This document shows, piece after piece, positions 21 through 20,980 of a stretch of DNA of 64,000 nucleotides. The notes under the pieces were generated by a model. It saw nothing but the letters and a program-made list of their open reading frames with translations, did no database searches and was not told where the DNA came from. How positions within the stretch are numbered: position 1 is the stretch's first letter; each line of letters starts with the position of its first letter. Both the position numbers and the translations under genes were made by a program. This stretch comes from Lachnospiraceae bacterium (GTDB lineage Bacteria; Bacillota; Clostridia; Lachnospirales; Lachnospiraceae): positions 62,001-126,000 of the forward strand of contig JAFUPV010000006.1 of the NCBI GenBank assembly GCA_017472605.1, written 5' to 3'.

Positions 21-440
21 ATGGTGGAGAAATTCAGAAGGGGAAGAAAAGATAACAGGGGATTTACTCTGGTTGAGATGGTTGTCGTAATGGTGATTAT
101 CGCCATTCTGGCAACGCTGATGATCGGTGCATTAAACGGATATATCGATAAGGCAAAGGAAAAGACAGCAGTTGCAAACTGCCGATCGGTTGTTGTTGCT
201 GCCCAGACACAGCTGTCTGAGGAATATGCGAAGGGGCACGCGTACAGCGGAACCACCTGGGACCGTACCTCCGGATCGGAATACACAATGAAGAAAGTGC
301 TTGAGCTTGCGGACCTTGTTGGAAAGGTAACGGTAGTCAGCCAGTCTGTCAGCGACGGTACGGTGAATTCCATGGATGTGAAAACAGGAGACATTACTGC
401 CAGATATACCGATGATGGCGGAATCGTGATTTTGAACTGA
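21..440 (+). CDS. pilA: Type IV major pilin (prepilin)
   Basis: This 139-residue protein has a classical class III (prepilin) signal: a short basic leader, then the cleavage motif NRG|FTLVE, then a hydrophobic helix up to about residue 36. Glu is at mature position 5, as subunit assembly requires. The rest is a small globular domain, the usual size of a Gram-positive type IV pilin. It would be processed by the prepilin peptidase encoded next and polymerised by PilB/PilC. A GGGG-rich ribosome binding site precedes the ATG. Being first in the visible operon and followed by a hairpin suggests it is the abundant structural subunit; that role is inferred. Confidence 0.88.
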   Translation: MVEKFRRGRKDNRGFTLVEMVVVMVIIAILATLMIGALNGYIDKAKEKTAVANCRSVVVAAQTQLSEEYAKGHAYSGTTWDRTSGSEYTMKKVLELADLVGKVTVVSQSVSDGTVNSMDVKTGDITARYTDDGGIVILN

Positions 441-2513: not shown

Positions 2514-2551
2514 ACAGCTGTCTGGAAATCGTTGGTTTGGGGGAAGAATTG

Positions 2552-3457
2552 ATGGATACATCTGTATATATAACAAATCAGTCACTGTATGTGGTGACTG
2601 GAAGAGGTTCGGGAACAAAGGTAAAGATTAAAAAGGTATATCATCTTCCGATCCCGGAAGGCGTGATGATGAACGGGATCATCACCAATGATTCGCTGTT
2701 GGCGGAAGAGCTTTCCGCTTACTGGAAAACATATCGCCTGCCGAAGAAAAAGATCCGTCTTGTGATTGATTCCGGTAAGTTTCTGACAAAAACAATGGAA
2801 GTTCCCTACCTGAAAGATGAGGAGCTTCTGAAGGTGATTCGCATGGAATTTCAGGATGCGGACCGCGAGGAACTGCTTTTTGACTATTTCCCGCTGGAGA
2901 AAACGGATGAATACAGTCTCAATGAACTGTTCTGTGCAGCTGTGGAAAAACAGGTGCTTGAAAGCTATGTCTCACTGTTCCATGGACTGAAAATATCCCT
3001 TTCCTCGATTAATATTGGATATGCATGTCTGCTGAAAGCTGCATTTGGCACAGGTGCCTTTGCCGGAAAGACAAGCATCCTGATGATGATGGAGGGCGAC
3101 AATGTAATCAGTACGCTGTTTGAAAATGGAAGATACATCTACAGCCGCCGAAACCGTCTGTTTAATGAGCCGGGAAGCACGGCAAGGTGTTCCGAGCTGG
3201 CAAGAATTGTTTCTGATATTCAGCAGTTCCAGGTCAGCCGCCGGAATGAGTTTGTGATCCGTTCCATTGACACGTCGGGTTTTGAACGGGAAAATCTGGA
3301 GGAATTCAGAAATCAGATTGCTTTTCTCGATATTAAAATCGAAGAACTGACCTGGCTGGGTGGAGTCCGGTTCCCGGCGACAAAGATCACAAAAGAGGGA
3401 GAAAAGAAAACGGTTGCCGGAGACCATCTGTATAACATCGGCAATCTGATGCGGTAA
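2552..3457 (+). CDS. pilM: Type IV pilus assembly protein PilM-like
   Basis: This 301-residue protein has an actin/FtsA-like fold signature in its start (TSVYITNQSLYVV) and in segments such as KIRLVIDSGKFLTKTMEVP. Position between pilC and the pilN/pilO-like genes matches the PilMNO alignment module, in which cytoplasmic PilM binds the N-terminal tail of PilN. No transmembrane segment is seen. The ATG at 2552 was chosen because a GGGGGAAG ribosome binding site lies about six bases upstream; a TTG at 2537 in the same frame would place the site inside the gene. Similarity to PilM is by fold pattern and context and was not tested by search. Confidence 0.78.
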   Translation: MDTSVYITNQSLYVVTGRGSGTKVKIKKVYHLPIPEGVMMNGIITNDSLLAEELSAYWKTYRLPKKKIRLVIDSGKFLTKTMEVPYLKDEELLKVIRMEFQDADREELLFDYFPLEKTDEYSLNELFCAAVEKQVLESYVSLFHGLKISLSSINIGYACLLKAAFGTGAFAGKTSILMMMEGDNVISTLFENGRYIYSRRNRLFNEPGSTARCSELARIVSDIQQFQVSRRNEFVIRSIDTSGFERENLEEFRNQIAFLDIKIEELTWLGGVRFPATKITKEGEKKTVAGDHLYNIGNLMR

Positions 3458-3474: not shown

Positions 3475-4113
3475 ATGGCACAGGATACCAAACAGACGAA
3501 ACGAAAAAAGATTAAGGCAATCCCTTCACGGCAGATTGACTTTTACAGCCGGCTGCAGCGGACACCGGAAAAAATGGAAGCGAGACGAAAAAAACGTCTG
3601 GCTGTTCTGGCAGCAGTGGCGGTCATGGCGGTGCTGGCCGCTGTTCAGGTGATTTTATATATGCAGGTGACGTCGCTGGAACGGGAAACGGAAAAGCTTC
3701 GTATCTATCTGGCGCAGGAGGAATTACAGGAACGGTCATCGTATGCGGATCAGCTGATTCTGGATGCCGGAGCAACGAAACGAAAGCTGGAAGATGTATC
3801 CAATGCGGCGGAAAATATTAACAGCTATCCAATTGTTACAACAGAGATGATTGAGCTGCTGGAACAGAGCTGCCCGGATCTGGTACAGATTACAATCACC
3901 GGTTATCAGTCGCTGAATGGTCAGCTGCTGTTTGACGCGGTTGCTCCCAAGGAGACGGACATTTCCGACGCCATCGTGATCTGGCGTGATGAACTGGATA
4001 TCTTCGAAGATGTATATTATACTGGTTTTACCGAGAACTATGACAGTGTGACAGAAACAGAAACCTATCAGGTGAAAGTAACCTGTATTCTGAAAGAAGA
4101 AACCGGAAAGTGA
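3475..4113 (+). CDS. pilN: Type IV pilus assembly protein PilN-like
   Basis: This 212-residue bitopic protein has a basic cytoplasmic tail (residues 1-43, rich in Lys/Arg), one transmembrane helix (about 44-63, LAVLAAVAVMAVLAAVQVIL) and an extracellular part that opens with a coiled coil and ends in a small ferredoxin-like region. This is the layout of PilN/fimbrial assembly proteins. The tail would contact PilM and the periplasm-equivalent domain would pair with PilO. The next gene overlaps its stop codon, suggesting translational coupling. The call relies mainly on architecture and gene order. Confidence 0.78.
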   Translation: MAQDTKQTKRKKIKAIPSRQIDFYSRLQRTPEKMEARRKKRLAVLAAVAVMAVLAAVQVILYMQVTSLERETEKLRIYLAQEELQERSSYADQLILDAGATKRKLEDVSNAAENINSYPIVTTEMIELLEQSCPDLVQITITGYQSLNGQLLFDAVAPKETDISDAIVIWRDELDIFEDVYYTGFTENYDSVTETETYQVKVTCILKEETGK

Positions 4114-4790
4114 GGCAGGAGATGAAACTGGAATTAAAAGTGACCAGACGGGATAAGATCCTGCTGGCAGTCATGGGAATTGCTGCATTGCTGGTCGGGT
4201 ATGTTTATTTTGGTGTGATCCGCCCGACCAATCGGATGGAGGAGCTGACAATGGAGCAGGAGCTGCTTGAAATGCAGAAGCAGCAGGTTGATATGAAGCT
4301 GGCACAGATTCCTGTCTATGAGCTTGCTGTTGCAAACGATTCTGCTGCCTATGAAGAGACAATTCAGAGCTTTCATCCAATCATGACAAACGATGAAGTG
4401 GGAGCTTTTGTAACGGATCTGATGGTTGACAAGGGCATGAAAATCCAGGATCTGGAGATTCAGTCGGCAAAGCTCATGGAAATTGCACCGTATCTGTACA
4501 GTGAAAAAGCAAAGGCTCAGGAAACGGAAGAATCCGCTGAGCAGGAATACACAGAAACGAATCCCAATCAGACAGAAATCGTTTACAGCTGTGAGGTTTC
4601 ATGCCGTGCCATCGGTGATCGTTCTCAGGTGCTGGAGGTGCTGGATGTTTTGTCAAAGGAGGAAGGCGTAAGGGTTTCTTCGTTTTCCGTCGGTGACATT
4701 ACAAGGCAGGTCGGACGGGGAGAAAACATCACTTACACAAAGAAAAAGGAACTGGATCTGAAGCTGGTAATCTATATGTGCAGGAAGTAG
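4110..4790 (+). CDS. pilO: Type IV pilus assembly protein PilO-like
   Basis: This 226-residue protein has a short N-terminal cytoplasmic part, one membrane helix (about residues 18-37, ILLAVMGIAALLVGYVYFGV), a coiled coil of Glu/Leu/Gln heptads and a C-terminal domain, as in PilO. It is the expected partner of the PilN-like protein before it. The GTG start overlaps the previous stop; an ATG at 4122 with GGAG directly upstream is an alternative that would shorten the protein by four residues. A Glu/Gln-rich patch near residues 134-152 looks like a linker. Confidence 0.76.
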   Translation: MRQEMKLELKVTRRDKILLAVMGIAALLVGYVYFGVIRPTNRMEELTMEQELLEMQKQQVDMKLAQIPVYELAVANDSAAYEETIQSFHPIMTNDEVGAFVTDLMVDKGMKIQDLEIQSAKLMEIAPYLYSEKAKAQETEESAEQEYTETNPNQTEIVYSCEVSCRAIGDRSQVLEVLDVLSKEEGVRVSSFSVGDITRQVGRGENITYTKKKELDLKLVIYMCRK

Positions 4791-4797
4791 GTCGGAT

Positions 4798-6471
4798 ATG
4801 GCAAATGAGAAGAATATACGAATTGGTGATGTGCTGAAAAGCTATGGCTACATCAATGATATGCAGCTGGAACGTGCTCTGGATTATCAGAAGCAGCATA
4901 AAGGAATGCGAATCGGTGAAGCACTGGTTGAGCTTGGTTTTGTAACAGAAAAACAGAAACTGGAAGCACTTGCCAAGCGAATGGATCTGCTCTATGTGGA
5001 GATTCCGAGGCTGACTGTGCAGATTGAAGCGGTAGAGCTGATTCCCAAGCAGCTTGCCCAGCGCTATCAGATGCTGGCAGTGCAGAAGCAGGAGAATAAC
5101 CTGACGCTTGTTGTGAATGATCCGCTGGATTTCTATGCGATTGAAGATATTCGTCAGATTACCGGAATGAATCTGCGGCTGTGGCTTGCAGAGCCGGCGC
5201 CGCTTCGAAGCGCAATCAATTATTACTACTCAGAAATTGATGCAAGAAAAGCCGCTACCTCAGCAAACCAGATGGCAGAGGAGCAGCTGCAGGAGCTGGA
5301 AGTGGAAGAAGGCGACGGAGATGCGCCGATCATTAAGCTTCTGAACAATCTGATTGCCAGAGGCTATAACATGAACGCTTCCGATATCCATGTGGAGCCA
5401 TTTGAAGAGAAGAGTTCGGTCCGGATTCGTGTGGATGGTCAGCTTCTTGACTATGTAACCCTTCAGAAATCCATTCATCAGAATCTGATTGCCCGCATTA
5501 AAATTCTGTCCGCTCTGAATATTGCGGAAAAACGTCTGCCTCAGGACGGCCATTTCCGATATCGTGTCTTAAATGAAGATATTAACATCCGTGTCTCTGT
5601 GATTCCTACGGTATATGGAGAAAAAGCGGTGCTGCGTCTTCTGACTGCCAATAACCGGATTGAGCGTTCCGAGACGTTTGGAATGACACCGGAGCATTAC
5701 GAAGAATTCAGCAGGATGCTGGACGCGCCAAACGGAATCATCTATCTGACCGGTCCAACCGGTTCCGGAAAGACAACAACACTCTATATGGCACTTTCAA
5801 AGATAAGCAGCCACAAGATTAACATCGCAACAATCGAAGATCCGGTGGAACGCCGTCTGCCCCGTGTGAATCAGAGTCAGGTAAACACGGTTGCAGGAAT
5901 GACGTTTGAACGGGGACTTCGTTCCCTTCTCCGTCAGGATCCGGATGTCATCATGGTCGGTGAGACACGTGACCCGGAGACAGCTTCCATTTCTGTTCGG
6001 GCTGCAATTACAGGACACCTGGTGTTCAGCACGCTTCACACCAATGATGCGGTTACATCGATCATTCGTCTGGTGGACATGGGAGTGGAACCTTATCTGG
6101 TGGCGAACTCACTGATCGGTCTTGTTGCGCAGCGTCTGGTGCGGAAAGTATGCCCGGAATGCGGTGTTTATGAAGAGCCGACAGAGGATGAGCGCGTGCT
6201 GATTGGAAACGGGATTCAAAAAGTGCGCAGGAGCAGGGGATGCAATACCTGTAACCAGACCGGATATCTGGGACGGACTGCAATCCATGAGATACTCAGC
6301 ATCGACCATACGATGCGAAAGATGATCACAGACGGTGCATCCGTGGAAGATCTGCAGGAATATGCGGTAAAGGAAAGAAAGATGTCTACTCTGAAGGAAG
6401 AGGCGCTGAAGCTTGTCCGTGACGGAGTGACAACAGTCGAAGAATTAAAGAAGGTTGCATTTTATCTATAA
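4798..6471 (+). CDS. pilB: Type IV pilus extension ATPase PilB/GspE
   Basis: This 557-residue secretion ATPase powers pilin polymerisation. An N-terminal MshEN-type domain (about residues 1-145), of the kind that can bind cyclic di-GMP in some relatives, is followed by the N2 domain (ASDIHVEP, RVDGQLLD) and the RecA-like core. Walker A is GPTGSGKTT at 319-327. The Asp box lies in ATIEDPVE, Walker B in VIMVGETRD, and the His box in GHLVFSTLHTND. Two CxxC pairs near 452-455 and 485-488 form the zinc site typical of extension rather than retraction ATPases. It follows pilO by 7 bp and precedes pilT. Confidence 0.95.
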   Translation: MANEKNIRIGDVLKSYGYINDMQLERALDYQKQHKGMRIGEALVELGFVTEKQKLEALAKRMDLLYVEIPRLTVQIEAVELIPKQLAQRYQMLAVQKQENNLTLVVNDPLDFYAIEDIRQITGMNLRLWLAEPAPLRSAINYYYSEIDARKAATSANQMAEEQLQELEVEEGDGDAPIIKLLNNLIARGYNMNASDIHVEPFEEKSSVRIRVDGQLLDYVTLQKSIHQNLIARIKILSALNIAEKRLPQDGHFRYRVLNEDINIRVSVIPTVYGEKAVLRLLTANNRIERSETFGMTPEHYEEFSRMLDAPNGIIYLTGPTGSGKTTTLYMALSKISSHKINIATIEDPVERRLPRVNQSQVNTVAGMTFERGLRSLLRQDPDVIMVGETRDPETASISVRAAITGHLVFSTLHTNDAVTSIIRLVDMGVEPYLVANSLIGLVAQRLVRKVCPECGVYEEPTEDERVLIGNGIQKVRRSRGCNTCNQTGYLGRTAIHEILSIDHTMRKMITDGASVEDLQEYAVKERKMSTLKEEALKLVRDGVTTVEELKKVAFYL

Positions 6472-6499
6472 AAGAAGCAGCTTGGGAAAGGGGATCCGA

Positions 6500-7555
6500 A
6501 TGAAAACAGACCGAATTGTGAAAGAAGCAAGAATGCTTGGTGCTTCCGATATCCATATCAGCGTTGGATCTGCGCTGCGCTTCCGGATCAATGGACAGCT
6601 GAAGGCATGCGAATACCTGTTTTCTGACGAAGAGACGGAAGAAATGATTCGATCCATGGCAGATGAAGAGCAGATCGCGCAAGTACTTGCCGGTACCGAT
6701 TTGGATTTTGCAATGGAAACGTCAGATGGAATGCGTCAGCGAGTGAACGTGTTCAGACAGCAGGGAAAGCTGGCTGCAGTGATCCGGCTGCTGCAGGATA
6801 GGATTCCTTCTCTGGAACAATTGAAGCTGCCGCCTGTTCTGAAAAAACTGGCAGATGAGCCAAGAGGACTGATTCTGGTAACAGGCCCAACCGGTTCCGG
6901 AAAGTCTACGACGCTGGCGGCGATGATTGACTACATCAACCACAGCCGGGCAGATCACATTCTGACGATAGAAGATCCAATTGAATATGTTTACAAACAG
7001 GATCGGGCAGCGATCCATCAGCGCGAGGTCGGCAGGGATGTTCCAACGTTTGCTGCGGCACTGCGTTCGGCGCTGCGCGAAGATCCGGATGTCATCCTTG
7101 TCGGAGAGATGAGAGACTATGAAACGATTTCTGCTGCAGTGACGGCAGCGGAGACCGGTCATCTGGTATTGTCTACCTTACATACAACAGGAGCAGCCCA
7201 GACGATTGACCGGATTATCGATGTCTGTCCGGGTGAGACACAGAATCAGATCCGAACACAGCTTGCAGGCGTCTTAAAAGGTGTAGTAACACAGGCGCTG
7301 GTTCCTACAGCTGACCAAAGAGGACGTGTTGCTGCTACGGAGATTCTGACAGGTACGGATGCGGTTCTGAATCTGGTGCGTGAGAATAAGTGTCACCAGC
7401 TGAACGCGGTAATGCAGTCCGGTGCAGCAGCAGGTATGCATACACTGAACAGCGATCTGGCAAGGCTTGTCAGCTGCGGATACATTACAAAAGAAGCCGC
7501 AATGAAATATGCAGCTGATAAGCGGGATCTGCAGCAGTATCTGACCGGTCTGTAA
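6500..7555 (+). CDS. pilT: Type IV pilus retraction ATPase PilT
   Basis: This 351-residue hexameric ATPase depolymerises pili (twitching, DNA uptake). It has the PilT N-terminal ASDIHI segment, Walker A GPTGSGKST at about 129-137, IEDPIEY, Walker B VILVGEMRD and the His box ETGHLVLSTLHTTGAA. It lacks the zinc cysteines of PilB, which supports the retraction assignment. The ATG at 6500 was chosen: an AAAGGGGA ribosome binding site sits just upstream and the protein then starts like other PilT proteins. An in-frame ATG at 6455 would overlap pilB and has no such site. Its presence implies dynamic pili. Confidence 0.94.
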   Translation: MKTDRIVKEARMLGASDIHISVGSALRFRINGQLKACEYLFSDEETEEMIRSMADEEQIAQVLAGTDLDFAMETSDGMRQRVNVFRQQGKLAAVIRLLQDRIPSLEQLKLPPVLKKLADEPRGLILVTGPTGSGKSTTLAAMIDYINHSRADHILTIEDPIEYVYKQDRAAIHQREVGRDVPTFAAALRSALREDPDVILVGEMRDYETISAAVTAAETGHLVLSTLHTTGAAQTIDRIIDVCPGETQNQIRTQLAGVLKGVVTQALVPTADQRGRVAATEILTGTDAVLNLVRENKCHQLNAVMQSGAAAGMHTLNSDLARLVSCGYITKEAAMKYAADKRDLQQYLTGL

Positions 7556-7633: not shown

Positions 7634-10600
7634 ATGATAAAAGAATGCTTTATACAGTGCAGAAGACGGCTGGGGACCATTCGAACCGGCGGTTTTACGC
7701 TGACGGAACTGATGGCAGTTCTGGCGATTCTTTCTGTCCTGCTGACTGTTTCTGTCGGAGGGATTGCTGCTTACCAGAAATGGGCGGGATTTCGCAGACA
7801 GAATGAATATGCCCAGACATTGTTTACTGCTGCCCAGTCCGGACTGACCAGATACAGCGTAAGCGGGCAGAACAAAGAACTGCAAAACATTGTTTCGAAA
7901 GAACAGACGTCAGCCGGCGGCGCACTTTATGAGGATGGCCGATGGAAGATTGCCCAGAATCTGCGGTCCGATTATTCCGGCACCGAGCAGGCAATTACCG
8001 CTGAGATGATCTGGAATATCAGTGCAGGGCAGTTTGATGCATATTATCGCTATGGGGCCATTTACTATCTGATCGGAACACCGGCTGACTATCAGAACTA
8101 TCGGAACAAAACGGCAGGTGATGCGCATCAGGCGCTTTATGATCTGTTTGAGCACTATCTTTATGATAAATCAATTCTGGCCTCCGGTGTGATTGCAGTT
8201 GAATTTGATCCGGCGGAAGGTCTGGTGTATTCTGCGTTTTACAGTGATTCTGTTTCTTCGTTTACCTACACGGGTGGCTCCGAAAAGGGACGCAGCTTTA
8301 ATCTGTCGGATCGAACCTATTCGGTACGCGAACAGTATCAGGTAGGATACTATGGCGTGGATACGCTGTCACGGTCCACATCATCCCTGCCGATGCCGGT
8401 TGTAAGCAGCGTGTCGCTGAATAACGGGGAAACATTGAATCTCACCTGGTCTCTGTCAAAAGAGGAACAGGCGCTGATGGAACTGACTTACGTTGTAACA
8501 TTGTTTGATTCTTTAACTGGCGATGCTGTTCTCGGGATTACAGTGAACCGCAGCAGAATTGAAGGCGGACTTGGATATTACCGTCTTCCTGTTTTGAATG
8601 AAGAGGAGTCAGAAGACGATGTACAGCTGATTTTCTGCGACGTAGTCCGCTATACGGACCAGGGAGCTGTTTCGCTTGGTGAGTATCCGTTTCTCGGATA
8701 TGTGGGAACTGATGATGATCAGCATGCAGAGATTACTCTTGTTCTGGATGCGGTAGATCTGGCTGCAACCGAGCAGGCCTATCAGCGTTACCGGGAAAGT
8801 CTTCGGGAGGACGGCAGTTTTGCGGCTTCCGTTTCGTTCCTTGATCAGAGTGAGTCAAATGATATCAGCTGTACACTGAGCCTTCATCGGTTTGGCCTGG
8901 AGGCTTATGGTGTGGAAGAGATATACTGCAGTGTGCAGGGATATGCGGTAAACTATAAACTGACAGCTGCAAGACAGAGTAATCAGGAAAACATGTATTT
9001 TGGATCGGAAAAAAATCTGTCCGGGGCAGATTCGGGAGAAGAAACATCCTCTGAGAATCAATCCCAAGCGGTATATTCCATTGAGAATGCACGTCATCTG
9101 AATAACATCCGCTATGCGGAGCTGATGAAAGACGAAAGTCTGAAAACAAACATAATATTGTTTGATGAGAAGGAATTAAGGCCGTCAGCCTATGAAATAA
9201 CGGATTCCTTCGCATGGGGCTATCCAGTTGGAGAGCAGAGTGAGCTGACAAGTGGAGAGCAGAGTGCGCTGGCAAGTGAAGAGCAGAGTGCGCTGGCAAG
9301 TGAAGAGCAGTCCTGGAGCAGTTCATCAATCCTCTATCAGAAGTGTGTGTTCCGGAATGGAAGCCCTGTTCTGGAAGAAGAAGATGGATCGCTGGCTGCT
9401 TTCCCTTCGATTTCCTATCTCAGAGCATCTTCCAGTCTGTATTCTGTGGAGACGGAAGATGGCAAGACGGAAACGATTGATTATCTGATCATCAATGATG
9501 AGGGAAATGATGGCTGTATTCTGGCAAATGCTGCGGAAAGCAGTGAGGAAAGCTCCCTGACAGGAGCCGCTCTGATCATTGATAATGAAGGTGTGATAAA
9601 AAATCTGAAACTGGATCATGTCCAGGTTGAGGGTTACAGCCGTGTGGCTGCATTCTGTGCCAATAATAAGGGAACGCTGTACAATCTGGAGACGGTTGGC
9701 GGAACCATTTCGGGTGTTGAGTTTGTGGGAGGTGTTTTTGCGTCACACAACGATCCGTTTGCTGCGGCTGCTGCAGATTACCGTGATCTGGTAAATTGTG
9801 CGGATGTTTCCGGAGTGATTTATGTGGGAGGAATCAGCGGTCAGCTGGTCAGCGGAATGTCGTTTTCCTTTTCCGACGATGTGTGGACGGAAAGCACCGG
9901 TGCCATTTTAATGGAAAACTGCAGGAACTATGGTGTTGTATCTGCAGTCATCCCTGACAGCAAAGAAGAATTGTCTGAAGAACTGGAACCGGCATATTTC
10001 GGCGGTATTGTCGGTGAGGCATGGAACCAGACGGAAGATGCCGATGCGCTGATTATCCGTGACTGCGAAAGCAGCCCGGATTATGAGGAAATTCTGGAAG
10101 AGGCGCAGGATGTGGATTATCTGTGCAGGGGGAACTATGTGGGAGGAATTGCCGGAAGCCTGGAAGGAGCGAAACTGGTAAACTGTTCCATTGGTCAGTC
10201 AGTGTCCCAGTCTGCATTGAATGAACTTCTGCTTAATGAGACGGACGATACTGCGCTCTGGGTATTCGGTGAGAATTTTGTAGGAGGAATTGCCGGATAT
10301 AATAATGGAACGATTCTGTACGAAGAGGAAACATGCTGTACGATTCATGTGAAAGGCATGGATCTGGTCGGCGGAATTGTCGGCTATAATGATGTCAATG
10401 GTGTTGTGGATGGGGTCCGGATTGCTGACAGCAGCATTTCCGGAAGAAATCTGGTTGGTGGATTTTATGGCCTGAATGCGTCTGCCGGCCTGTTTGCGTC
10501 TGCGCTGTTTGAAGGCAGTAATCTGAGCGTTTCCGGAACGCACATGACAGGCGGTGTGATTGGCGGAAATGTGGTGCCGTCTGATGAAGACCTGACGGTA

Positions 10601-13600
10601 CGGTTTGATTCAGCCGGATATCAGGTACAGGTTGCTTCGGATGGTGCGTATGCGGGCGGTCTGATTGGCTATCACATGATGCTGGCTGCAGAGGAAAAGG
10701 ATACGGAAACACTTTCCGGTGAGATCCGTCAGCTGATTACAGCGCTGTTAGGGGATGAAGAGCAGGGAATGGCTGCCATGACAGCTTCTGATATGGAGAC
10801 ACTGGAAATGCTGGTCTCTTTTGTGGAGGATGGCATGACAGCAACTGCTTCAGATGCCGTGCTGGCAGTGGAAGGCGGATGGGATGGATTGGATGACGGC
10901 AGCAGTGAAATGCCGGAACTGGATCCGGAACATCCGGATGGGGAGAATTCTGATTCAGAAAAACAGGATGACGAGGTGCTTCTGACGAATCTTCTGGCCG
11001 ATGCGTCTGCAGAGGAATCCGGTAGCAATTCTGTTTCCGGACAGATTTATGTCGGCGGAGTGATTGGTGGCTGCCAGGAAGAGGCTGTGCTGATGATCCG
11101 CCAGGTGAAAAATATGCTTTCTGTTGAAGCAGGGAATGCGGTTTTGGGAAGAGAGTTGGGGGACGGAGATCCCTATCTGTACTCCTATGCAGGAGGAATT
11201 ATTGGAAAGCTGCCGGCAGATGGTATCCTTGTGTCCAGCTGCAATGCGGAAGATATTGTGGTACAGGCGGCAGGAACAATAACTGGCGGTCTGACGGAAG
11301 TAAACAGCGGAATAATCGAACAATGTTTTGTAAATTCTCTCGGCAATGAAACAACCGGTTCCGTTGGCGGTATTGCAGGTATTAATCTTCCTTCTGCAAC
11401 GGTAGAAAACTGCGAACTGACAGGAACGATTACCGGATGGGGCCGCGTGGGAGGAATTGTCTGTGAAAACTATGGTTTCATGGTTGACTGCGGTGTAAAA
11501 ACAGGAAAACTGAATGTAATGGGCGAACGCGAACAGACAGATTCACCGGATGACGCGGCAGTGGTTGATTCGGTGTCAATGAGTTCGGAAACAATGGATC
11601 CTGCAGCGGGAGGCCTTGCTGCATATGCGGCAAGAGGAAGTGTTACTTCATTTACTCAGGATCAGGACTTGACCATTTCCATTGAAGGAGATGGTGTACA
11701 TGTGGGCGGTCTTCTTGGTATTGCAGCCGGAGCTGTTGAGCTTGCAGAAGAATGTGTGCTGACTCTGACAAAGGAAAGCTCGATTGCGGGTGCCTGCGCG
11801 GTTGGAGGAATGATTGGTGTGCTGGATGCGGATCCAGAAAACGGAATCCGCATCAGTGGGCTGCGCAATCTGGCGTCTGTCACTGCAAAGGAGGAATATG
11901 CAGGCGGCATTGCTGCTGTTGTTTCTCTGTCACAGAATGCAAAAACAGAAGTTTCTTCAGAAGCATCCGAAGAAACAACGGTGATTTCTCCAATGATTTT
12001 GCTGGAGGATCTGGTAAATGCAGGAACAATCAGTGCGTCGGGACAGACAGGCGGTCTGATTGCGGCAATTGAGAACACGGGTGGTGTCGATTCGAACAGT
12101 CATGCAGGTGTGCGCCTGGAGCAGTGTGAGAATCATGGCCTGATTCTTTCCGAAAAGGAAGGAAATGCCGCTGGTGTGATTGCATTTGCGTCAGCTGATC
12201 AGCTGGAACTGGTCAACTGTGTGAACACCGGACTGATCCAGGGAAATGAAAACAGTGCCGGTATTGCAGCCGACATGACGCTGGCAAAGCAGTTGATGAT
12301 TGATCACTGCCGCAATTATGGCTATGCTTATCAGGATATGGAAGCGGTATTTTCGGGAATTCTCGGATGTTCGGCAAAAACAGGTGCCGAAATCAACAGC
12401 AGCTATGGGGTATCTGCGCCGATGTATCCGATTACGGATTCGGATGCGGATACCGTCAACTCCTACTGCATAAATACCGAAAAGGAAGATCATCCGTCAT
12501 TTGGCGCAGTAACCATTACCAATTCGCGTCGGCTCTATGGCGGGAAAGCGGTTTTGTTTGCAGACTGGCTGACGGGCGAAAATGACCTTTCTGCGCTGGT
12601 TGACAAAGAAGCTGGACATTCAGAGAATGCAGCTGTTTATCCGGCGAATGAGGAAGAAATCTGGTCTGATTATATCTTTCTGCTGAATCAGCCCATTGAC
12701 CTGCAGGAAATTGCGGTTTTCTGGTATCGGGAGGATTCGAATCAGGCGATAACTGATTATGTAATTGAATACAGCACGCTTTCTGATCCGGGATTTACCG
12801 GCTGGATTCCGCTGTTTCTGGCAGAGGAAACGGATGACCGCAGAATTGGAGAGCAGGGAGAAGAAATCTTTTCTCTGGAAGAGCCTGTCGAGCATGTTCT
12901 GGCAGTACGTGTAAAGATCAGAGGAATGAAAACCGTTCATGGAGTGGATGAAATCTGTTTCCGTGGATATCTGAATGAATGTGCATATGACAGTTCTCTG
13001 GAACAGAATCTGATTCAGTGGGAAGCGGATGAGGAAGCCGTTGACATTGGCGGATTCTGTTATCCGGCACAGATGCCTGCAGAAATGTCGGCAGAAGTGA
13101 ATGGAAAAGGAATTCTGCTGAATCCGGTTTATGATGCGGAGCAATCCATGTACCAGCTGCGTGACCGCTGGGATCGTCTTGTCATTGACCAGCTGCCTCT
13201 TGATCCGGGCAAAGAAGAATATGCGGATTCGCTGGACAACCGTCTGCTTATCAGCGGAAGCGAAGCAGATAACAGCCGTTACCAGCTGTACCTCATGGAT
13301 GACCCATGGCTGATTCCGGTGGAAGCGGAAGAGACAGCTGAACTGGAAGCACCGACAGATCCGGTGATCACAGACTGTGGTTCCTGGTTCCTTGTAAGCT
13401 GGACACCGGCTGATCAGGTGACTGAATATGAGGTTGTGATCACGCTCTATGATGAGGCAGGAGAGGTGATTGGAACAGAACCGCCGGTACGGACAAAACA
13501 GACATGGATACCGGTGATCCGGAATCAGGATGGAACGGAGCCATTTGTTTCATTCCAGGCAGAGATTTACAGCGTGAGGGATGAGGAATTGTCGGCATTC

Positions 13601-16600
13601 GGTGTTCAGACAGAGCGTTATCAGGCTGCAGTGCAGCTTCCGGAGCCGGTGATTCACGTGAATTACGACGGTGAGACCGGGGAAGACGGCGATCTGAATC
13701 TGGATGAGTTCCATATCACCTGGGATCAGCCGGAATATCTGGAACCGGATTCTAAGGAGGCTTATCTGGATGCCAGATATTCCTGGCAGATCAGCGGAAT
13801 CTATGAAGACGGAACGGAAGAAATGATTGCGGAAATGGAGGATTCGGATGCCAGAGAGCTGCTGCTTGATGCAGAGGACTGGGAATACGAATTCATCCGT
13901 GTCCGGATCGAACGGATTAACAACAAAAATGGCGGCGCATATGGACTGTCTGCGGTGAGCGAACCGGAACTGTATCACCGGAAGCTGTATCTGAGCAGAA
14001 CGGCAGCACCGCAGATCAGACTGGCTGATGGAGCAGAAGGAACACCTCTGCGCTATCACCATGTATATGAAATCAGCTGGGATGCAGTTCCTGCCGCACA
14101 GCGAACGGAAGTGGATCATTACCAGATTACTGTCTGCAGACCGGGTCAGACAGAGGATGCGATTCCGCCGGAAACAGAAATGGAATCGGCAGCAGACCAG
14201 GAAACGGAGTCTGGTTCGGATGCCTCCGGTGAGTCGGAGAATGAGGAAACGGAAGGTAATCTGGGGGAGGATGCGGAGCCTGCAGCTGACGCTGTCTTTG
14301 AGATTTCCGCGACCGGAGAAGACAGACAGACGGCGCAGATTGATCTGAATTCGTTTGCATTCGGTGAAACAGTAACAATATCTGTTCAGGCGATTGCAAA
14401 GCAGGAGTCAGAGCGGTATCGTGATGCAAGAACCGGTGAGAGTACAGAACTGATTCTTCCGGCAATCCCTTATCCTCCGGAAATGAATGGCCATCTGTCT
14501 CTCGGACCGGTAAAGGCGGAAGCGACAGATTCGTTGACTGTCGAAGAATTTGAGCAATACGGATTCCGGTTAACAATGACTGATCCGAACGAATCAATGT
14601 TTACTCAGAATACCGGTCATTATGAAACAATCCTTCAGCTGTATGATTCTGTTAATGGAACATTGTTGTATGAAATTTCGGATACGCATCAATCAGGAAC
14701 TGCGGATCCGTCCGGAGCAATTCATTCGGATACGAATGTTCTGGCAATGTCCGGCAATCTGGCTGAAAGCAGTCTGGAGATTCAGGGGATTTCTGCAGAT
14801 TATGCCGGTACCTGGCTGAAAGTGATCCTGCGGTCTGTAACAGAAAAGGGAACGTCTGTCTGGACAGATGACTATGCAGGTGATTCCAATCTCTCTGCTG
14901 TTACCGCAGAGAAATGGTATCAGCTTCCGGCAGTTCGGATCGATCTTCCGGAAATAACGGAAACGGAAGAGGAAGTTGTTTATTCGCCATGGTATCATGG
15001 AGAGGAAGACACCAGTGAAGAACGGCAGCAGACGGTGCTGCAGAACAGCTATGTGTTTGGTGAGACCGAATATGCGGACGGCTATGTGATTTTTCTTGTG
15101 AGAAAAGCAGGCCTGACGGATATGGGAACCAGATCATGGGATTGTGATTGGTACAGTACCAGTTCCGATACCGTTGTGATACACAGAGATGGCACGGATC
15201 TGGATGGAATGCCGCTGTATCAGGTTGATTTTCAGTCCTCGGATCCACTGACAGCAGACGGAACTTCTTCTGATCTGTGGACATCGGATCAGGAACGTTG
15301 GCTGACACATCTGGTGCCGGAAATTACAGAATCGGAGGATGAGACAGAAACGACTCTCCTTTATCAGCTTCCGGGCCCGATTGAAATAAAAGAAACAGAG
15401 GAAACGGAAGAGGCAGGATGTCTGCTGGTATCTTCCTGGCTGAAGATCATTTGCACAAAGGAAACGGAAGCGGACGGAAGCGTCACATGGAAAACAGAGT
15501 TTGCGATAACTGTACCGGATAACGATCAGCAGGAATCCCTCATTTTCGATGAAAAGACAGAAATACGCAGTCTGCAGTTGGTTCAGATCTGTGCATATGA
15601 AAAAGCATTTGATAAAACGGAACAGGAAGCCAGCGGACTTCCCTATCGTGACTCCAGGATCTATTCCTGGTACCGGGCAGAGGAGAATGGGCAGAATACG
15701 GTGAAAACGGTGATTCTGGATGAATCGGATGAAAAGCCGGTTATGGAATACGTTCCGCTGGAAAATTCCGATGAGAATCTGATTGCCTATGAACTTTCAC
15801 CATACGGGGATGCAGTTTATGAAATGCACCTGCTGATCCGTGATGCGCAGGGAAACCTTGTTGCAGAAGAGATTCGCAGCGTTTCCTGGAAAATGGAAGA
15901 ACAGAAACGGACTTCGATGATTTATCTGCCGGATCTGGCAGACTGCAGCGAAGCTCTGGTAATCAGCCCAATCGGATATTCTGCATATGCGCAGAACTGC
16001 TGCGATCCGCAGCAGCCGGTGAATGTCACAGTGAGACTGCGCACCGTCGATGAGGTGACAGGTCTTTCCAGGTGGAGTGAGGAACTTGCGCTGTGGAATT
16101 ATGTTGAAAATCAGTGGATGCCAACCGGACAGGGCTCACTTCCGGAATTGAAACTGGATGATTTGACGAGAAATCAGTATCGTCTGGAAGCAGCTGCGAT
16201 TGAAGTAACCGTTGAAAAGACCATTCATGAAACAGATGATGAGGAATCACCGGAGGAAACTGCTCCATCAGATACAGCGGCGGATGGAGAAACGGAAACC
16301 GTGCCGGAGCAGGAAACTACGCCGGGACAGGAAACTGTGTCGGGACAGACTGACGCGTCGGATACCGCATCCGGAACGACATCAGAAACCGGTTCGGCAG
16401 ACGAAACAACTGGCGAATCCGATTCACAGACTACAATTGTTCTCAATGCGTCGGAATCGGTAATCAGCTGGGAGTGGCTGGAAACCGAAGCGAAAGTGCA
16501 GGCGTTCCAGATCAGCGTTCATCCATCAGGAGCTGCCGCTGAAGATGTGATTCTTCTCGATATCCCAACACAGCTTGAAGATGAAAATCCTCAGGAGCAG

Positions 16601-17821
16601 TCACCATACATGCTGTTCACGAAAGAATTCGGAGAGGAAATGCCGGAAGAAGGAACTTCGGAGGAAGAAACCACAGAGGAGAAGACCACAGAGGAGGAAA
16701 CCTCGGAGGAAGAAACCACAGAGGATGAAACCTTGGAGGAAGAGACTTCGGAGGAGGAAACCACAGTAGAGGAAACCTCGGAGGAAGAGACTACGGAGGA
16801 AGAAACCACAGAAGAGGAAACCTCGGAGGAAGAGACTACGGAGGAAGAAACCACAGAAGAGGAAACCTCGGAGGAAGAGACTACGATAGAGGAAACTTCG
16901 AAGGAGGAGACCACAGAGGAAGAATCTTCTGAGGAAGTAACCACAGTAGAGGAAACTTCAGAGGAAGAAGTCACAGAAGCGGAAACCTCTGCAGAGGAAA
17001 CAACAGCGGAGTCGGCCACAGCCGAACCGGCAACCACAGCCGAGCCGGCAACCACAGCTGAGCCAGAAACCACAGCCGAATCGGCAACAACAGTTGCACC
17101 GGCAACCACAGCCGAGCCAGAAACCACAGCCGAATCGGCAACAACAGTTGCACCAGCAACCACAGCCGAACCGGCAACCACAGCCGAATCGGCAACCACA
17201 GCTGAGCCGGCAACCACAGCCGAATCGGCAACAACAGTTGCACCGGCAACCACAGCTGAACAGGCAACCACAGCTGAGCCGGCAACCACAGCCGAATCGG
17301 CAACCACAGCTGAGCCGGCAACCACAGTTGCACCAGCAACCACAGTCGCGCCAGTAACCACAGCCGAGCCGGCAACCACAGTCGCTCCAGCAACCACAGC
17401 TGAGCTGACAACAGCCGCTGAACCGTCATCAACACTGGAGCCGATAACGGCACCGGAACCGCTGACAGCGGAAGAACCAGCAGCAGAGGAAACGGCGGGG
17501 ACGGTTTCAGCCAGCGTGAAACCGGTTGTATTCTATCTGAGAATGCAGGCTCTGATCGCGGAGGAGCCGGATTACCGATATTCCCTGACCTGCATGCTGG
17601 AAGTGGAAGCGTTCACCAACGAGGATGGTATTGACGGCTATCGATTCCGGCTTCATATACCCAATGTTACATGGACCGATGAGTCGGAGGATGCAGAGCA
17701 TCTTCAGCCGGTCATGCTGGTTGATGAGGTGAAAATAACAAAGATTGCATCGGAGCTGGTTCGCGACACGGTTTATAAGGATGTAGTGTATACGGTTGAT
17801 TTCACAGAAACACAGGAATAG
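7634..17821 (+). CDS. Giant modular prepilin, putative pilus-borne adhesin
   Basis: This 3395-residue protein starts with a genuine prepilin signal: basic leader, cleavage site GG|FTLTE at 20/21, Glu at mature position 5, hydrophobic helix to about 45. A pilin-like region to about 240 follows, then Ig/fibronectin-like segments (about 250-470). A long array of GLUG-like units with recurring VGGIAG/VGGIVG-type motifs spans about 665-1600. A discoidin-like segment lies near 1675-1785, and several more fibronectin-like modules run from about 1900 to 2860. A Thr/Glu-rich repeat covers about 3000-3125 and a Thr/Ala/Glu/Pro repeat about 3126-3260. A unique 100-residue C-terminal domain closes the protein. 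No LPXTG motif is present, so anchoring must be through the pilin helix. The ATG at 7634 has an AGAGGTG site six bases upstream. An adhesin or tip role is inferred; domain borders are approximate. Confidence 0.85.
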   Translation: MIKECFIQCRRRLGTIRTGGFTLTELMAVLAILSVLLTVSVGGIAAYQKWAGFRRQNEYAQTLFTAAQSGLTRYSVSGQNKELQNIVSKEQTSAGGALYEDGRWKIAQNLRSDYSGTEQAITAEMIWNISAGQFDAYYRYGAIYYLIGTPADYQNYRNKTAGDAHQALYDLFEHYLYDKSILASGVIAVEFDPAEGLVYSAFYSDSVSSFTYTGGSEKGRSFNLSDRTYSVREQYQVGYYGVDTLSRSTSSLPMPVVSSVSLNNGETLNLTWSLSKEEQALMELTYVVTLFDSLTGDAVLGITVNRSRIEGGLGYYRLPVLNEEESEDDVQLIFCDVVRYTDQGAVSLGEYPFLGYVGTDDDQHAEITLVLDAVDLAATEQAYQRYRESLREDGSFAASVSFLDQSESNDISCTLSLHRFGLEAYGVEEIYCSVQGYAVNYKLTAARQSNQENMYFGSEKNLSGADSGEETSSENQSQAVYSIENARHLNNIRYAELMKDESLKTNIILFDEKELRPSAYEITDSFAWGYPVGEQSELTSGEQSALASEEQSALASEEQSWSSSSILYQKCVFRNGSPVLEEEDGSLAAFPSISYLRASSSLYSVETEDGKTETIDYLIINDEGNDGCILANAAESSEESSLTGAALIIDNEGVIKNLKLDHVQVEGYSRVAAFCANNKGTLYNLETVGGTISGVEFVGGVFASHNDPFAAAAADYRDLVNCADVSGVIYVGGISGQLVSGMSFSFSDDVWTESTGAILMENCRNYGVVSAVIPDSKEELSEELEPAYFGGIVGEAWNQTEDADALIIRDCESSPDYEEILEEAQDVDYLCRGNYVGGIAGSLEGAKLVNCSIGQSVSQSALNELLLNETDDTALWVFGENFVGGIAGYNNGTILYEEETCCTIHVKGMDLVGGIVGYNDVNGVVDGVRIADSSISGRNLVGGFYGLNASAGLFASALFEGSNLSVSGTHMTGGVIGGNVVPSDEDLTVRFDSAGYQVQVASDGAYAGGLIGYHMMLAAEEKDTETLSGEIRQLITALLGDEEQGMAAMTASDMETLEMLVSFVEDGMTATASDAVLAVEGGWDGLDDGSSEMPELDPEHPDGENSDSEKQDDEVLLTNLLADASAEESGSNSVSGQIYVGGVIGGCQEEAVLMIRQVKNMLSVEAGNAVLGRELGDGDPYLYSYAGGIIGKLPADGILVSSCNAEDIVVQAAGTITGGLTEVNSGIIEQCFVNSLGNETTGSVGGIAGINLPSATVENCELTGTITGWGRVGGIVCENYGFMVDCGVKTGKLNVMGEREQTDSPDDAAVVDSVSMSSETMDPAAGGLAAYAARGSVTSFTQDQDLTISIEGDGVHVGGLLGIAAGAVELAEECVLTLTKESSIAGACAVGGMIGVLDADPENGIRISGLRNLASVTAKEEYAGGIAAVVSLSQNAKTEVSSEASEETTVISPMILLEDLVNAGTISASGQTGGLIAAIENTGGVDSNSHAGVRLEQCENHGLILSEKEGNAAGVIAFASADQLELVNCVNTGLIQGNENSAGIAADMTLAKQLMIDHCRNYGYAYQDMEAVFSGILGCSAKTGAEINSSYGVSAPMYPITDSDADTVNSYCINTEKEDHPSFGAVTITNSRRLYGGKAVLFADWLTGENDLSALVDKEAGHSENAAVYPANEEEIWSDYIFLLNQPIDLQEIAVFWYREDSNQAITDYVIEYSTLSDPGFTGWIPLFLAEETDDRRIGEQGEEIFSLEEPVEHVLAVRVKIRGMKTVHGVDEICFRGYLNECAYDSSLEQNLIQWEADEEAVDIGGFCYPAQMPAEMSAEVNGKGILLNPVYDAEQSMYQLRDRWDRLVIDQLPLDPGKEEYADSLDNRLLISGSEADNSRYQLYLMDDPWLIPVEAEETAELEAPTDPVITDCGSWFLVSWTPADQVTEYEVVITLYDEAGEVIGTEPPVRTKQTWIPVIRNQDGTEPFVSFQAEIYSVRDEELSAFGVQTERYQAAVQLPEPVIHVNYDGETGEDGDLNLDEFHITWDQPEYLEPDSKEAYLDARYSWQISGIYEDGTEEMIAEMEDSDARELLLDAEDWEYEFIRVRIERINNKNGGAYGLSAVSEPELYHRKLYLSRTAAPQIRLADGAEGTPLRYHHVYEISWDAVPAAQRTEVDHYQITVCRPGQTEDAIPPETEMESAADQETESGSDASGESENEETEGNLGEDAEPAADAVFEISATGEDRQTAQIDLNSFAFGETVTISVQAIAKQESERYRDARTGESTELILPAIPYPPEMNGHLSLGPVKAEATDSLTVEEFEQYGFRLTMTDPNESMFTQNTGHYETILQLYDSVNGTLLYEISDTHQSGTADPSGAIHSDTNVLAMSGNLAESSLEIQGISADYAGTWLKVILRSVTEKGTSVWTDDYAGDSNLSAVTAEKWYQLPAVRIDLPEITETEEEVVYSPWYHGEEDTSEERQQTVLQNSYVFGETEYADGYVIFLVRKAGLTDMGTRSWDCDWYSTSSDTVVIHRDGTDLDGMPLYQVDFQSSDPLTADGTSSDLWTSDQERWLTHLVPEITESEDETETTLLYQLPGPIEIKETEETEEAGCLLVSSWLKIICTKETEADGSVTWKTEFAITVPDNDQQESLIFDEKTEIRSLQLVQICAYEKAFDKTEQEASGLPYRDSRIYSWYRAEENGQNTVKTVILDESDEKPVMEYVPLENSDENLIAYELSPYGDAVYEMHLLIRDAQGNLVAEEIRSVSWKMEEQKRTSMIYLPDLADCSEALVISPIGYSAYAQNCCDPQQPVNVTVRLRTVDEVTGLSRWSEELALWNYVENQWMPTGQGSLPELKLDDLTRNQYRLEAAAIEVTVEKTIHETDDEESPEETAPSDTAADGETETVPEQETTPGQETVSGQTDASDTASGTTSETGSADETTGESDSQTTIVLNASESVISWEWLETEAKVQAFQISVHPSGAAAEDVILLDIPTQLEDENPQEQSPYMLFTKEFGEEMPEEGTSEEETTEEKTTEEETSEEETTEDETLEEETSEEETTVEETSEEETTEEETTEEETSEEETTEEETTEEETSEEETTIEETSKEETTEEESSEEVTTVEETSEEEVTEAETSAEETTAESATAEPATTAEPATTAEPETTAESATTVAPATTAEPETTAESATTVAPATTAEPATTAESATTAEPATTAESATTVAPATTAEQATTAEPATTAESATTAEPATTVAPATTVAPVTTAEPATTVAPATTAELTTAAEPSSTLEPITAPEPLTAEEPAAEETAGTVSASVKPVVFYLRMQALIAEEPDYRYSLTCMLEVEAFTNEDGIDGYRFRLHIPNVTWTDESEDAEHLQPVMLVDEVKITKIASELVRDTVYKDVVYTVDFTETQE
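9233..9310 (+). repeat. 24-bp tandem repeat inside the giant prepilin gene
   Basis: Three 24-bp units beginning GAGCAGAGTG plus a six-base remnant, the last two full units identical, encode an eight-residue EQSALASE-like repeat. In-frame, so copy-number change would only lengthen or shorten the protein. Confidence 0.85.
16633..17007 (+). repeat. Thr/Glu/Ser-rich coding repeat
   Basis: About 125 codons of TSEEETTEEE-type sequence. It includes a perfect 45-bp tandem unit present 2.6 times at 16769-16885 (unit starts at 16769, 16814 and 16859). All units are multiples of three bases, so slippage keeps the frame. Probably an extended, negatively charged stalk or linker. Confidence 0.85.
17011..17410 (+). 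repeat. Thr/Ala/Glu/Pro-rich coding repeat (18-bp unit)
   Basis: About 22 degenerate copies of an 18-bp unit encoding TTAEPA, TTAESA or TTVAPA hexapeptides. Longer blocks of several units are also duplicated. The composition resembles mucin-like or wall-spanning stalks and offers many possible O-glycosylation sites; that use is speculative. Confidence 0.85.
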
Positions 17822-17843: not shown

Positions 17844-18449
17844 ATGGAACAGATGAAAAAAAATCAAAAGGGAATGGCAATGATCATTGTTGTCTGCATC
17901 ATGGCAGTACTGATGGCTTTGTCACTGGCTCTGCTGGCTGCGTCTTCTCTTCTGATCGGAAATGCGCAGAATACGGCGGATGAAGAACAGGTTCGCAGCT
18001 TTACTGTATCTGTCAACCGAAGGATTGAGGAAGAGCTGACCGGTACGGCAGATGAGATTCGTCGGAACGGATCACCGGCAATCCGAAGCTGGATCAATGA
18101 AAAAATGTCCGGCGGGATGTGGACGGAATATGATCCGGCTCTGGAATCGTCCGCGCAGACATCAGCAATTCAACAATTGTCCATGGAGCAGACAGAGGCA
18201 GTTGGAGAAGGAAAACTGATCCGTTCCTGCGAGCTGAAGCTGTTCTGGGAATGCCTGGAAGAACGAAAAGTCGAAGAAAAACTGGCTGACGGAACGGTTT
18301 TCGAAGGAATCGAGTCAGAACTGCAGCTGACGGCAGAGATTACCTGTACAACAAGAAGTGGGAACCGCTATACAGCGGCAACAATTTTCGGCTGTAAAAA
18401 GCGGAGTGACGAGGATGAGTATTACTGGTATATCAGTGGAAGGGAGTAA
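17844..18449 (+). CDS. PilX-like minor pilin, no Glu5
   Basis: This 201-residue protein has a basic leader ending KNQKG, then a hydrophobic helix (about residues 11-34: MAMIIVVCIMAVLMALSLAL), then a soluble domain. This is the pattern of PilX N-terminal/GspK-like minor pilins. The Glu usually found at mature position 5 is absent, as in pseudopilins that sit at the filament tip. The ATG at 17844 has an excellent AGGAGGTG site; the frame opens further upstream but inside the giant gene. It lies 22 bp after the giant gene and 2 bp before the next pilin-like gene. Function is inferred from architecture and context. Confidence 0.72.
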   Translation: MEQMKKNQKGMAMIIVVCIMAVLMALSLALLAASSLLIGNAQNTADEEQVRSFTVSVNRRIEEELTGTADEIRRNGSPAIRSWINEKMSGGMWTEYDPALESSAQTSAIQQLSMEQTEAVGEGKLIRSCELKLFWECLEERKVEEKLADGTVFEGIESELQLTAEITCTTRSGNRYTAATIFGCKKRSDEDEYYWYISGRE

Positions 18450-18451: not shown

Positions 18452-18769
18452 GTGAAACGAATTATAAAGAATTCCAGAGGAACCAGTCTGGTAAGTGTTA
18501 TGATCGCCTTTCTGGTTCTGATGATCATCATGACCATCTTTCTTCAGGCTGTCAGACTCTCAGGCAACATGGTGATCCGTGCAACTCAGATTCGGGAATC
18601 CGCCCAGACGCTTGCCCAGGGCTATTATACCGATCAGCAGGCCGCCGCAGCTGTCAGTGAAACTCCGGCTGTTTTTTACCAGGGAGCAGGGGAGTGTTTT
18701 CGCATGGAAATTACATTGAAGTGCTATACCGATCCGGTCCATGGGGGACAATACTATTTCTTTGACTGA
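18452..18769 (+). CDS. Small pilin-like protein with degenerate class III signal
   Basis: This 105-residue protein starts at GTG with an AGGGAGTAAGG site overlapping the previous stop. The N-terminus NSRG|TSLVSVMIAFLVL looks like a prepilin cleavage site followed by a hydrophobic helix, but Ser replaces Glu at mature position 5. The remainder is only about 70 residues. It is likely a minor pilin (GspI/PilV-like) of a tip complex with its neighbours. I do not recognise a closer family. Confidence 0.68.
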   Translation: MKRIIKNSRGTSLVSVMIAFLVLMIIMTIFLQAVRLSGNMVIRATQIRESAQTLAQGYYTDQQAAAAVSETPAVFYQGAGECFRMEITLKCYTDPVHGGQYYFFD

Positions 18770-18779: not shown

Positions 18780-19364
18780 ATGAAACGGATAAAAAACAGG
18801 CGGGGAACCACGTTAGTTGAACTGATGGTAACGCTTGCGCTGATCGGAATCTTTCTGGTTGTTTCCGCGGCAGCCGTAACAAACGGTCTTCGGGTGTTTG
18901 TCCAGGTAAAAACGACAGCCAACGCAATTGTCGTCAGTGATACGATTCTTGATAAAATTTCCGGTGAGCTGACAGCAGCCAGAAAACGGGCAGCAGTCAG
19001 TGAATCACAGGATGCAGTTGCTTTTTACACGAGAACAGGAAGTCTGGTCTCCATCCGGGCAAAAGACGGAAGGATGAACATGCACTATTATCCGGTTACC
19101 GGCAGCAATGGAAACGGAGCCGTTGTGTACGAGGCGGCGGACTGGCAGTTTGACCAGAAAATGTATCAGGGACTGACACTGGAATCCCTTCGGTTTGCTG
19201 TACAGTCAGGAAGCTCATCCAATGTGATCCAGGTTGCAATCCAGCTGAGAAAAGGTGATTTTGTATACACAGACAGCCGATGGGTGGAATGTACCGATCC
19301 GGACATGAAAGCAATTGCAGTCGTTCCGTCAATCACAGATGATCCGAATTCCGTGTTTCCCTGA
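18780..19364 (+). CDS. Minor prepilin (GspJ/PilW-like)
   Basis: This 194-residue protein has a canonical prepilin signal: RRG|TTLVELMVTLALIGI, with Glu at mature position 5 and a hydrophobic helix to about residue 33. The globular domain that follows has beta-rich stretches such as DAVAFYTRTGSLVSI. The ATG at 18780 was chosen because a GAGGGATG site precedes it and the leader then has normal length; 13 upstream codons overlap the previous gene. It is the last gene of the pilus operon and is followed by an intrinsic terminator. Confidence 0.8.
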   Translation: MKRIKNRRGTTLVELMVTLALIGIFLVVSAAAVTNGLRVFVQVKTTANAIVVSDTILDKISGELTAARKRAAVSESQDAVAFYTRTGSLVSIRAKDGRMNMHYYPVTGSNGNGAVVYEAADWQFDQKMYQGLTLESLRFAVQSGSSSNVIQVAIQLRKGDFVYTDSRWVECTDPDMKAIAVVPSITDDPNSVFP

Positions 19365-19431
19365 TGGAAAGCAGGTTTCACATGAGAGAGGCTCATGCGG
19401 ACAGAATATAGTAAAAACAAAATTGGAGGAA

Positions 19432-19457
19432 AGCGTCGCGTCAGCGGCGCTTTTTTT
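19432..19457 (+). terminator. Terminator of the pilus operon
   Basis: Stem AGCGTCGC / GCGGCGCT (one G-T pair), GTCA loop, then seven T residues: a textbook intrinsic terminator after the last pilin gene. Confidence 0.88.
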
Positions 19458-19485: not shown

Positions 19486-19530
19486 GTGATAAACGAGAAC
19501 GCAAATGGATGGATCAAGGAGGTGAAACGG

Positions 19531-20966: not shown

Positions 20967-20980
20967 CAGGGAGGGGAATT

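Follow-up and report, generated by a model that had tools for sequence, protein, structure and literature searches.

A 3,395-residue prepilin encoded in a type IV pilus operon of a Lachnospiraceae bacterium, a candidate tip-complex adhesin

A giant prepilin gene with a genuine coding frame

We analyzed a 64,000-nucleotide stretch of a Lachnospiraceae bacterium genome (NCBI GenBank assembly GCA_017472605.1, contig JAFUPV010000006.1, positions 62,001 to 126,000 of the forward strand), hereafter the window, in which a type IV pilus (T4P) operon includes a gene for a prepilin of 3,395 amino acids. Positions 7634 to 17821 are a genuine single coding frame, and alignments place its product in a family of giants from Lachnospirales relatives. 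We propose, with a probability of roughly 0.6, that this giant is a minor pilin of the tip complex used as an adhesin. The gene and its leader are as follows:

7634..17821, + strand: giant prepilin gene, 3,395 aa (open frame, coding bias, prepilin signal)
7634..7693, + strand: 20-residue basic leader ending in GG (RTGG↓FTLTE), expected cut before FTLTE (sequence, conservation)

The frame is open from position 7613 (3,402 aa) or from the ATG at 7634 (3,395 aa), ending in both cases at 17821 on the + strand, and the sequence AGAGGTG lies a few bases 5′ of that ATG. A stop-free run of 3,395 codons would arise by chance with P ~10^-80 at the local base composition. Synonymous codon usage matches that of six neighboring genes in the giant's frame only (+0.126 log-odds per codon, versus −0.079 to +0.009 in the other five frames), and the bias holds in each of six 500-codon blocks covering residues 1 to 3000. 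A preliminary description of this DNA had claimed one in-frame 10.2-kb open reading frame with a GG↓FTLTE signal and Glu5, about twenty times the size of a pilin; all of this was borne out, with no break of the frame in the sequence. The long tandem repeats toward the 3′ end may mislead assembly, but the coding bias over residues 1 to 3000 and single frames of comparable size in relatives render gene decay, or an artefact of assembly or annotation, extremely improbable.

The protein carries the signature of a type IV pilin (class III prepilin), namely a basic leader running to Gly, a hydrophobic residue at +1, and Glu at +5. TIGR02532 scored 21.8 bits against a cut-off of 16.3, and Pfam N_methyl reached 25.4 bits in the genome search (cut-off, 21.2). 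Residues G20, F21, T22, and E25 are invariant in all eight rows of alignment A1 and all nine rows of alignment A3. The only hydrophobic segment lies within residues 18 to 48; no LPxTG, relaxed sortase motif, or C-terminal hydrophobic segment was found in the giant. The expected mature protein has 3,375 residues, a mass of 366.5 kDa, and a pI of 4.05.

A pilin module with a grafted arm

The giant can be divided into the following segments:

7694..8371, + strand: pilin module, residues 21 to ~246 (predicted helix then strands; aligns with pilins of 198 to 213 aa; profile match in the Protein Data Bank [PDB])
8381..9013, + strand: Ig-like domain, residues ~250 to 460
9071..12553, + strand: GLUG-type β-helix, residues ~480 to 1640 (approximate edges; RHLNNIRY close to its start)
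12641..12925, + strand: possible F5/8 type C (discoidin-like) domain, residues ~1670 to 1764 (weak; 15.1 bits, E 0.026, below the Pfam cut-off)
13634..14476, + strand: two FN3-like domains, residues ~2001 to 2281
16655..17497, + strand: Glu/Thr-rich, then Thr/Ala/Pro-rich repeats, residues 3008 to 3288 (tandem repeats, composition)
17498..17818, + strand: C-terminal segment, residues 3289 to 3395 (sequence)

Structure prediction gave the giant a long α1 helix (residues 23 to 76) followed by β-strands (186 to 192 and 197 to 204), as in type IV pilins, with a block confidence (pLDDT) of ~69 to 87 there; the best row of the PDB profile match to pilins spans the helix only. Behind this module, an arm of ~3,100 residues looks like a succession of an Ig-like domain, a GLUG-type β-helix, FN3-like domains, and, in the window, an acidic repeat linker. 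The giant contains 19 GLUG-type motifs, compared with a mean of 0.35 and a maximum of 3 in shuffled sequences. Pfam Glug scored above its cut-off of 20.5 bits in three relatives (38.9, 71.4, and 40.8 bits in L061, L062, and L063) and below it in L021 (18.8 bits). A phmmer search of P0001 against the PDB gave a single hit (E 0.019), which fell within the repeats, and a search with its residues 268 to 755 gave a best E of only 0.16. Sub-threshold matches of Alpha-amylase_C in P0002 and CBM_5_12 in P0007 were set aside. Positions 16633 to 17400 hold two in-frame arrays (45-bp units, 7.5 copies; 18-bp units, 21.4 copies), the length of which could vary among strains.

The slot before pilX-V-W is occupied by a short pilin in three relatives (L057, 198 aa; L049, 213 aa; L071, 200 aa). 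For L057 and L071, the alignment to the giant extends to just past its GYYG strand (residues 238 to 241); that of L049 stops earlier and the profile match there crosses a stop, so that this pilin may have been shortened from a longer one. A 363-aa protein from a different family of the phylum (L081, 1033 to 2124) has this module with a tail that bears a weak likeness to F5/8 type C (16.1 bits, below cut-off), a small version of the graft. The module shared by these proteins points to a boundary near residue 246, and since short pilins in the same slot align with the start of the giant, it resembles a minor pilin onto which an arm has been grafted. Its predicted anatomy fits that of a modular pilin, i.e., a pilin module joined to a domain that is not T4P specific.

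A different use of this N-terminus would be that of a borrowed anchor, the giant being a cell-surface adhesin that is exported, perhaps cut, and retained in the membrane, but never polymerized. One hydrophobic segment can serve as an anchor, and the arm far exceeds any pilin in the cited passages. We nevertheless consider this unlikely, given that the pilin module is kept past the signal, that short pilins hold the same slot in three relatives, that G20, F21, T22, and E25 are invariant in two alignments, and that the giant sits among minor pilins and pilus machinery.

A module tree was built from 42 sequences; L045, the first copy in L063, L064, L070 (cut frames), and others were left out, and the motif filter, which demands Glu5, dropped L056. 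Because of this filter, the presence of Glu5 in 41 of 41 sequences is circular and was given no weight. The five short or mid-size rows require five label changes, no improvement on shuffled labels, and most of them are surrounded by weak branches. The tree cannot say whether arms were gained or lost, or whether the short pilins are ancestral or trimmed.

Giant prepilins recur in Lachnospirales

Matches to the first 489 residues of the giant were found in 9 of 61 genomes, and the long frames of seven other giants translate to 2,271 to 4,537 aa. Invariant residues of alignment A1 (eight N-termini) include, besides those of the signal, E190, G238, R487-H488-L489, and N491. A 14-row profile (A4), restricted to residues behind the pilin helix so that this common helix was excluded, had matches at E ≤ 1e-5 in 32 of the 392 genomes from the order. 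Open frames of 1,177 to 4,121 aa were present in 27 of these; two more (561 and 966 aa) reach contig ends, judged by coordinates, and three are short (200, 226 with an internal stop, and 428 aa). The profile itself drew rows from at least four of these 32 genomes, and the count is a lower bound because at most five candidates were scored per genome. In a phylum-wide sample, A4 matched 3 of 398 genomes, two of them from the giant's own family, including its own genome.

Long N_methyl proteins, a search for which had been suggested in the preliminary description, did turn up. In a family sample of 60 genomes, 29 contained N_methyl matches, numbering 144 according to the match column. Nine of these matches, in 9 of the 29 prepilin-bearing genomes, sit in frames of 2,276 to 4,540 aa; the rest are in frames of 867 aa or less. 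In a phylum sample of 61 genomes, the longest N_methyl frame among the matches listed had 516 aa; these matches reach to ~E 1.5e-6 and the window giant scores below that, so weak-scoring giants elsewhere in the phylum would be hidden. A whole-protein scan of GTDB contigs with the giant found no relative. For a second scan, alignment A1 proved too heterogeneous, and the three-row alignment A2 used in its place returned 18 loci: 11 family loci (L061 to L071), all titled Lachnospiraceae, and seven (L072 to L078) that match at the pilin start only, with frames of 113 to 451 aa.

The giant belongs to a pilus operon

On the same strand 5′ of the giant lie two ordinary pilins, one of which precedes the window start (contig locus L019), followed by PilD, PilC, PilM, a PilN/PilO-like pair, PilB, and PilT; three small prepilin-like genes lie 3′:

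21..440, + strand: ordinary pilin, likely the major pilin (N_methyl, 41 bits)
500..1297, + strand: PilD prepilin peptidase (A24_N_bact, Peptidase_A24)
1308..2513, + strand: PilC/GspF platform protein (T2SSF, E 2.4e-52)
2537..3457, + strand: PilM (PilM_2, 27.1 bits; cut-off, 27)
3475..4113, + strand: PilN-like (position only; no Pfam match)
4110..4790, + strand: PilO/GspM-like (T2SSM, 25.8 bits, below the cut-off of 27.8)
4798..6471, + strand: PilB extension ATPase with MshEN domain
6455..7555, + strand: PilT retraction ATPase (TIGR01420, 445 bits; cut-off, 319)
17844..18449, + strand: PilX/K-like small prepilin, no Glu5, mature start MAMII (homologues 3′ of the giant in relatives)
18452..18769, + strand: PilV/I-like small prepilin, mature start TSLVS, no Glu5 here
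18780..19364, + strand: PilW/J-like small prepilin, mature start TTLVE, Glu5 (N_methyl, 26.2 bits)

The placement of the giant between pilT and three minor-pilin-like genes, as first described, is thus supported by a PilT above the TIGR01420 cut-off and by three prepilin-like genes downstream, of which only the third keeps Glu5 and scores above the N_methyl cut-off. PilX/K-, PilV/I-, and PilW/J-like are names given by gene order and Glu5 pattern alone, and the Pfam scan assigned no specific family above cut-off to the PilX- and PilV-like genes. The PilV/I-like relatives in L020 and L021 do have Glu5. The PilB gene product carries an MshEN domain and an NCBIfam c-di-GMP motif above cut-off, suggesting that pilus extension may respond to c-di-GMP. 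Further downstream (19364 to 24773), the pilus operon runs into an apparent sporulation operon (spoIIIA) with the same orientation, and we take the genes that follow the pilus genes to be spoIIIAA onward, nusB, and xseA; no spoIIIA-like frame was labelled in the fetched flanks of other giant loci.

Type II secretion systems and T4P have parts in common, which raises the idea of a secretion-like piston that drives either the giant or a cargo attached to it across the wall. The platform protein scores best against GspF (336 bits; cut-off, 424) and the extension ATPase against GspE (544 bits; cut-off, 630), but retractile pili are indicated by a PilT above cut-off and by the two ordinary pilins adjoining the operon, and such a pseudopilus is improbable. 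Still less probable is a shaft pilin present in several copies along the filament: Glu5 is a feature of shaft pilins and the giant has it, but its slot adjoins three presumptive tip pilins, and packing many 366-kDa subunits would be costly, two considerations offered here as arguments and not as tests.

Gene order around other giants

Other pilus or prepilin-like genes are found beside all 10 giants with long flanks (the window and nine others). Eight of these 10 also adjoin machinery genes; for the other two, G004 and G826, the neighbors seen are pilX/V/W-like genes alone. Such neighbors are also seen in 8 of the 11 family loci of the GTDB scan, among them L071 with its short pilin instead of a giant; the remaining three are L064 and L068, on contigs of less than 7 kb, and L063, with two giants in tandem. 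The order giant-pilX-pilV-pilW is complete in the window, G014, G017, G004, L065, L066, L067, L069, L082, and L083, the last repeating the window's arrangement (PilM-PilO-PilB-PilT-giant [3,735 aa]-X-V-W). L061 and L062 end after pilV, no pilV is labelled in G029 and G058, and no pilX or pilV is shown in G028. The order is X-V-W-giant in G006, and V-W lies upstream of the giant in L041 and L042. Enlarged PilV-like genes (579 and 338 aa) occur downstream of giants in L024 (17164 to 18903) and L083 (16330 to 17346), suggesting that grafts may not be confined to the giants among the minor pilins. The tandem β-helix giant prepilins of L063 (3 to 9548 and 9989 to 12945) are both incomplete, each running off one end of the fetched stretch.

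Upstream of the β-helix giant, 5 of the 11 family loci carry a second giant prepilin of 1,129 to 2,082 aa, immediately adjacent in four and with one pilin-like frame intervening in L064:

L065, 3641..9889
L066, 6147..9932
L067, 6565..9954
L069, 3759..9992
L064, 849..4619

N_methyl and DUF285 scored above cut-off in the four second giants scanned (L065, L066, L067, and L069), as did BspA-type LRR_5 in two of them, pointing to operons with two giant prepilins bearing unrelated arms.

Discussion

The operon contains a PilD gene, and in the mechanism that we favor PilD would cut the leader at GG↓F, after which the next ~225 residues would fold as a pilin. The giant would then join a complex with the PilX-, PilV-, and PilW-like proteins that starts the filament, as described for the HIJK minor pilins, which occupy the tip, initiate assembly, and have a subunit without Glu5 as their cap (PMC10191384). 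The arm of ~3,100 residues would be displayed beyond the wall, at the pilus tip or just beneath, where its predicted domains would probably make a long sticky fibre able to hold on to mucus, plant fibre, other cells, or similar surfaces, and PilT would pull on the bound target. Regarding the pilus-displayed giant adhesin proposed in the preliminary description, we retain the prepilin-type giant in a T4P operon, its family, and its pilin module with a β-rich arm, and we infer its export, tip position, and adhesion.

Several observations weigh against the proposal of a tip-complex adhesin. A 366-kDa subunit would have to pass both the wall and the platform. Pfam N_methyl scored only 20.4 bits in the protein scan, below its cut-off of 21.2, Pfam Glug gave 16.3 bits on the window giant against 20.5, and known ligand-binding domains were sub-threshold only (F5/8C, 15.1 bits). 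Confidence in the giant's model is moderate (mean pLDDT, 60.9) and low at residues 1600 to 2560 (43.1); Foldseek found nothing in the PDB at E ≤ 0.001, and the fold-comparison rows scarcely probe the pilin module. Finally, of the four genes compared here with the HIJK tip complex, the PilX-like one lacks Glu5, but so does the PilV-like one, a second absence not foreseen in the HIJK pattern, and the H/I/J/K assignment comes from gene order and Glu5 only.

Only as a tentative picture, more doubtful than the tip-complex adhesin itself, gut and rumen Lachnospirales may build T4P tipped by a giant pilin-borne fibre, or in some species by two (β-helix and BspA-repeat). In this picture, the fibre would be long enough to span the wall unaided, so that its outer end would stay exposed even at full retraction; it would take the place that PilY1 has in diderms and set which surface each species grips.

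If the proposal is correct, T4P machines would handle subunits of ~130 to 490 kDa (1,177 to 4,537 aa at 110 Da per residue), unforeseen by small-pilin assembly models, and a set of uncharacterized Lachnospiraceae surface proteins would gain a location and a likely role. Pilin surveys would also need revision: PilFind was trained on pilins of at most 333 aa and searches proteins shorter than 350 aa (PMC3244431), and the giant falls outside the criteria of an InterPro-based census because these call for a second recognized domain, none of which scores above Pfam cut-offs in the giant (PMC8179133).

Comparison with known systems

The preliminary description had considered this an undescribed system. 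Grafting of domains onto a pilin is a known strategy: the 2021 census counted more than 1,200 modular pilins in 264 architectures, and in Streptococcus sanguinis the graft of the minor pilin PilB acts in adhesion (PMC8179133). No pilins this large appeared in titles and abstract beginnings among the matches listed for the open-access literature, the scope of which excludes subscription papers and preprints; this is weak evidence for the novelty of the giant family. Among the same matches, we found no description of proteins of this size or of two-giant operons.

The giant resembles S. sanguinis PilB (vWA) and PilC (lectin) in joining a pilin module to a grafted functional domain within a T4P, but its arm would consist of a β-helix and FN3-like domains (PMC8179133). 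Its graft of ~3,100 residues also contrasts with the census extreme, a protein of 860 residues in total with 12 repeats (PMC8179133). If located at the tip, it would recall PilC/PilY1 of diderm T4P as a large modular tip protein, although PilY1 is a non-pilin with a C-terminal β-propeller (PMC10191384, PMC8179133). PF05567, the PilC/PilY1 propeller family, had no match in the giant at E ≤ 1; a genome search for it found none, but its control found nothing either, so that the family may still be present elsewhere in this genome. Bacteroides ovatus BACOVA_03286 (PDB 3n6z, titled a putative immunoglobulin A1 protease) shares 15% identity, under a title that names no pilin. EtpA, which binds flagellar tips in Escherichia coli, is a β-helix adhesin at a filament tip, but a separate secreted protein rather than a filament subunit (PMC10284417). 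Myxococcus Kil/Tad tips offer interchangeable minor-pilin tips with variable domains, in a Tad-type machine with large pilins of the TadG/KilN type (PMC12075869). With modular pilins known up to 860 residues and giants undescribed in this literature, we regard the giant family as a variant of modular pilins and not as a new system.
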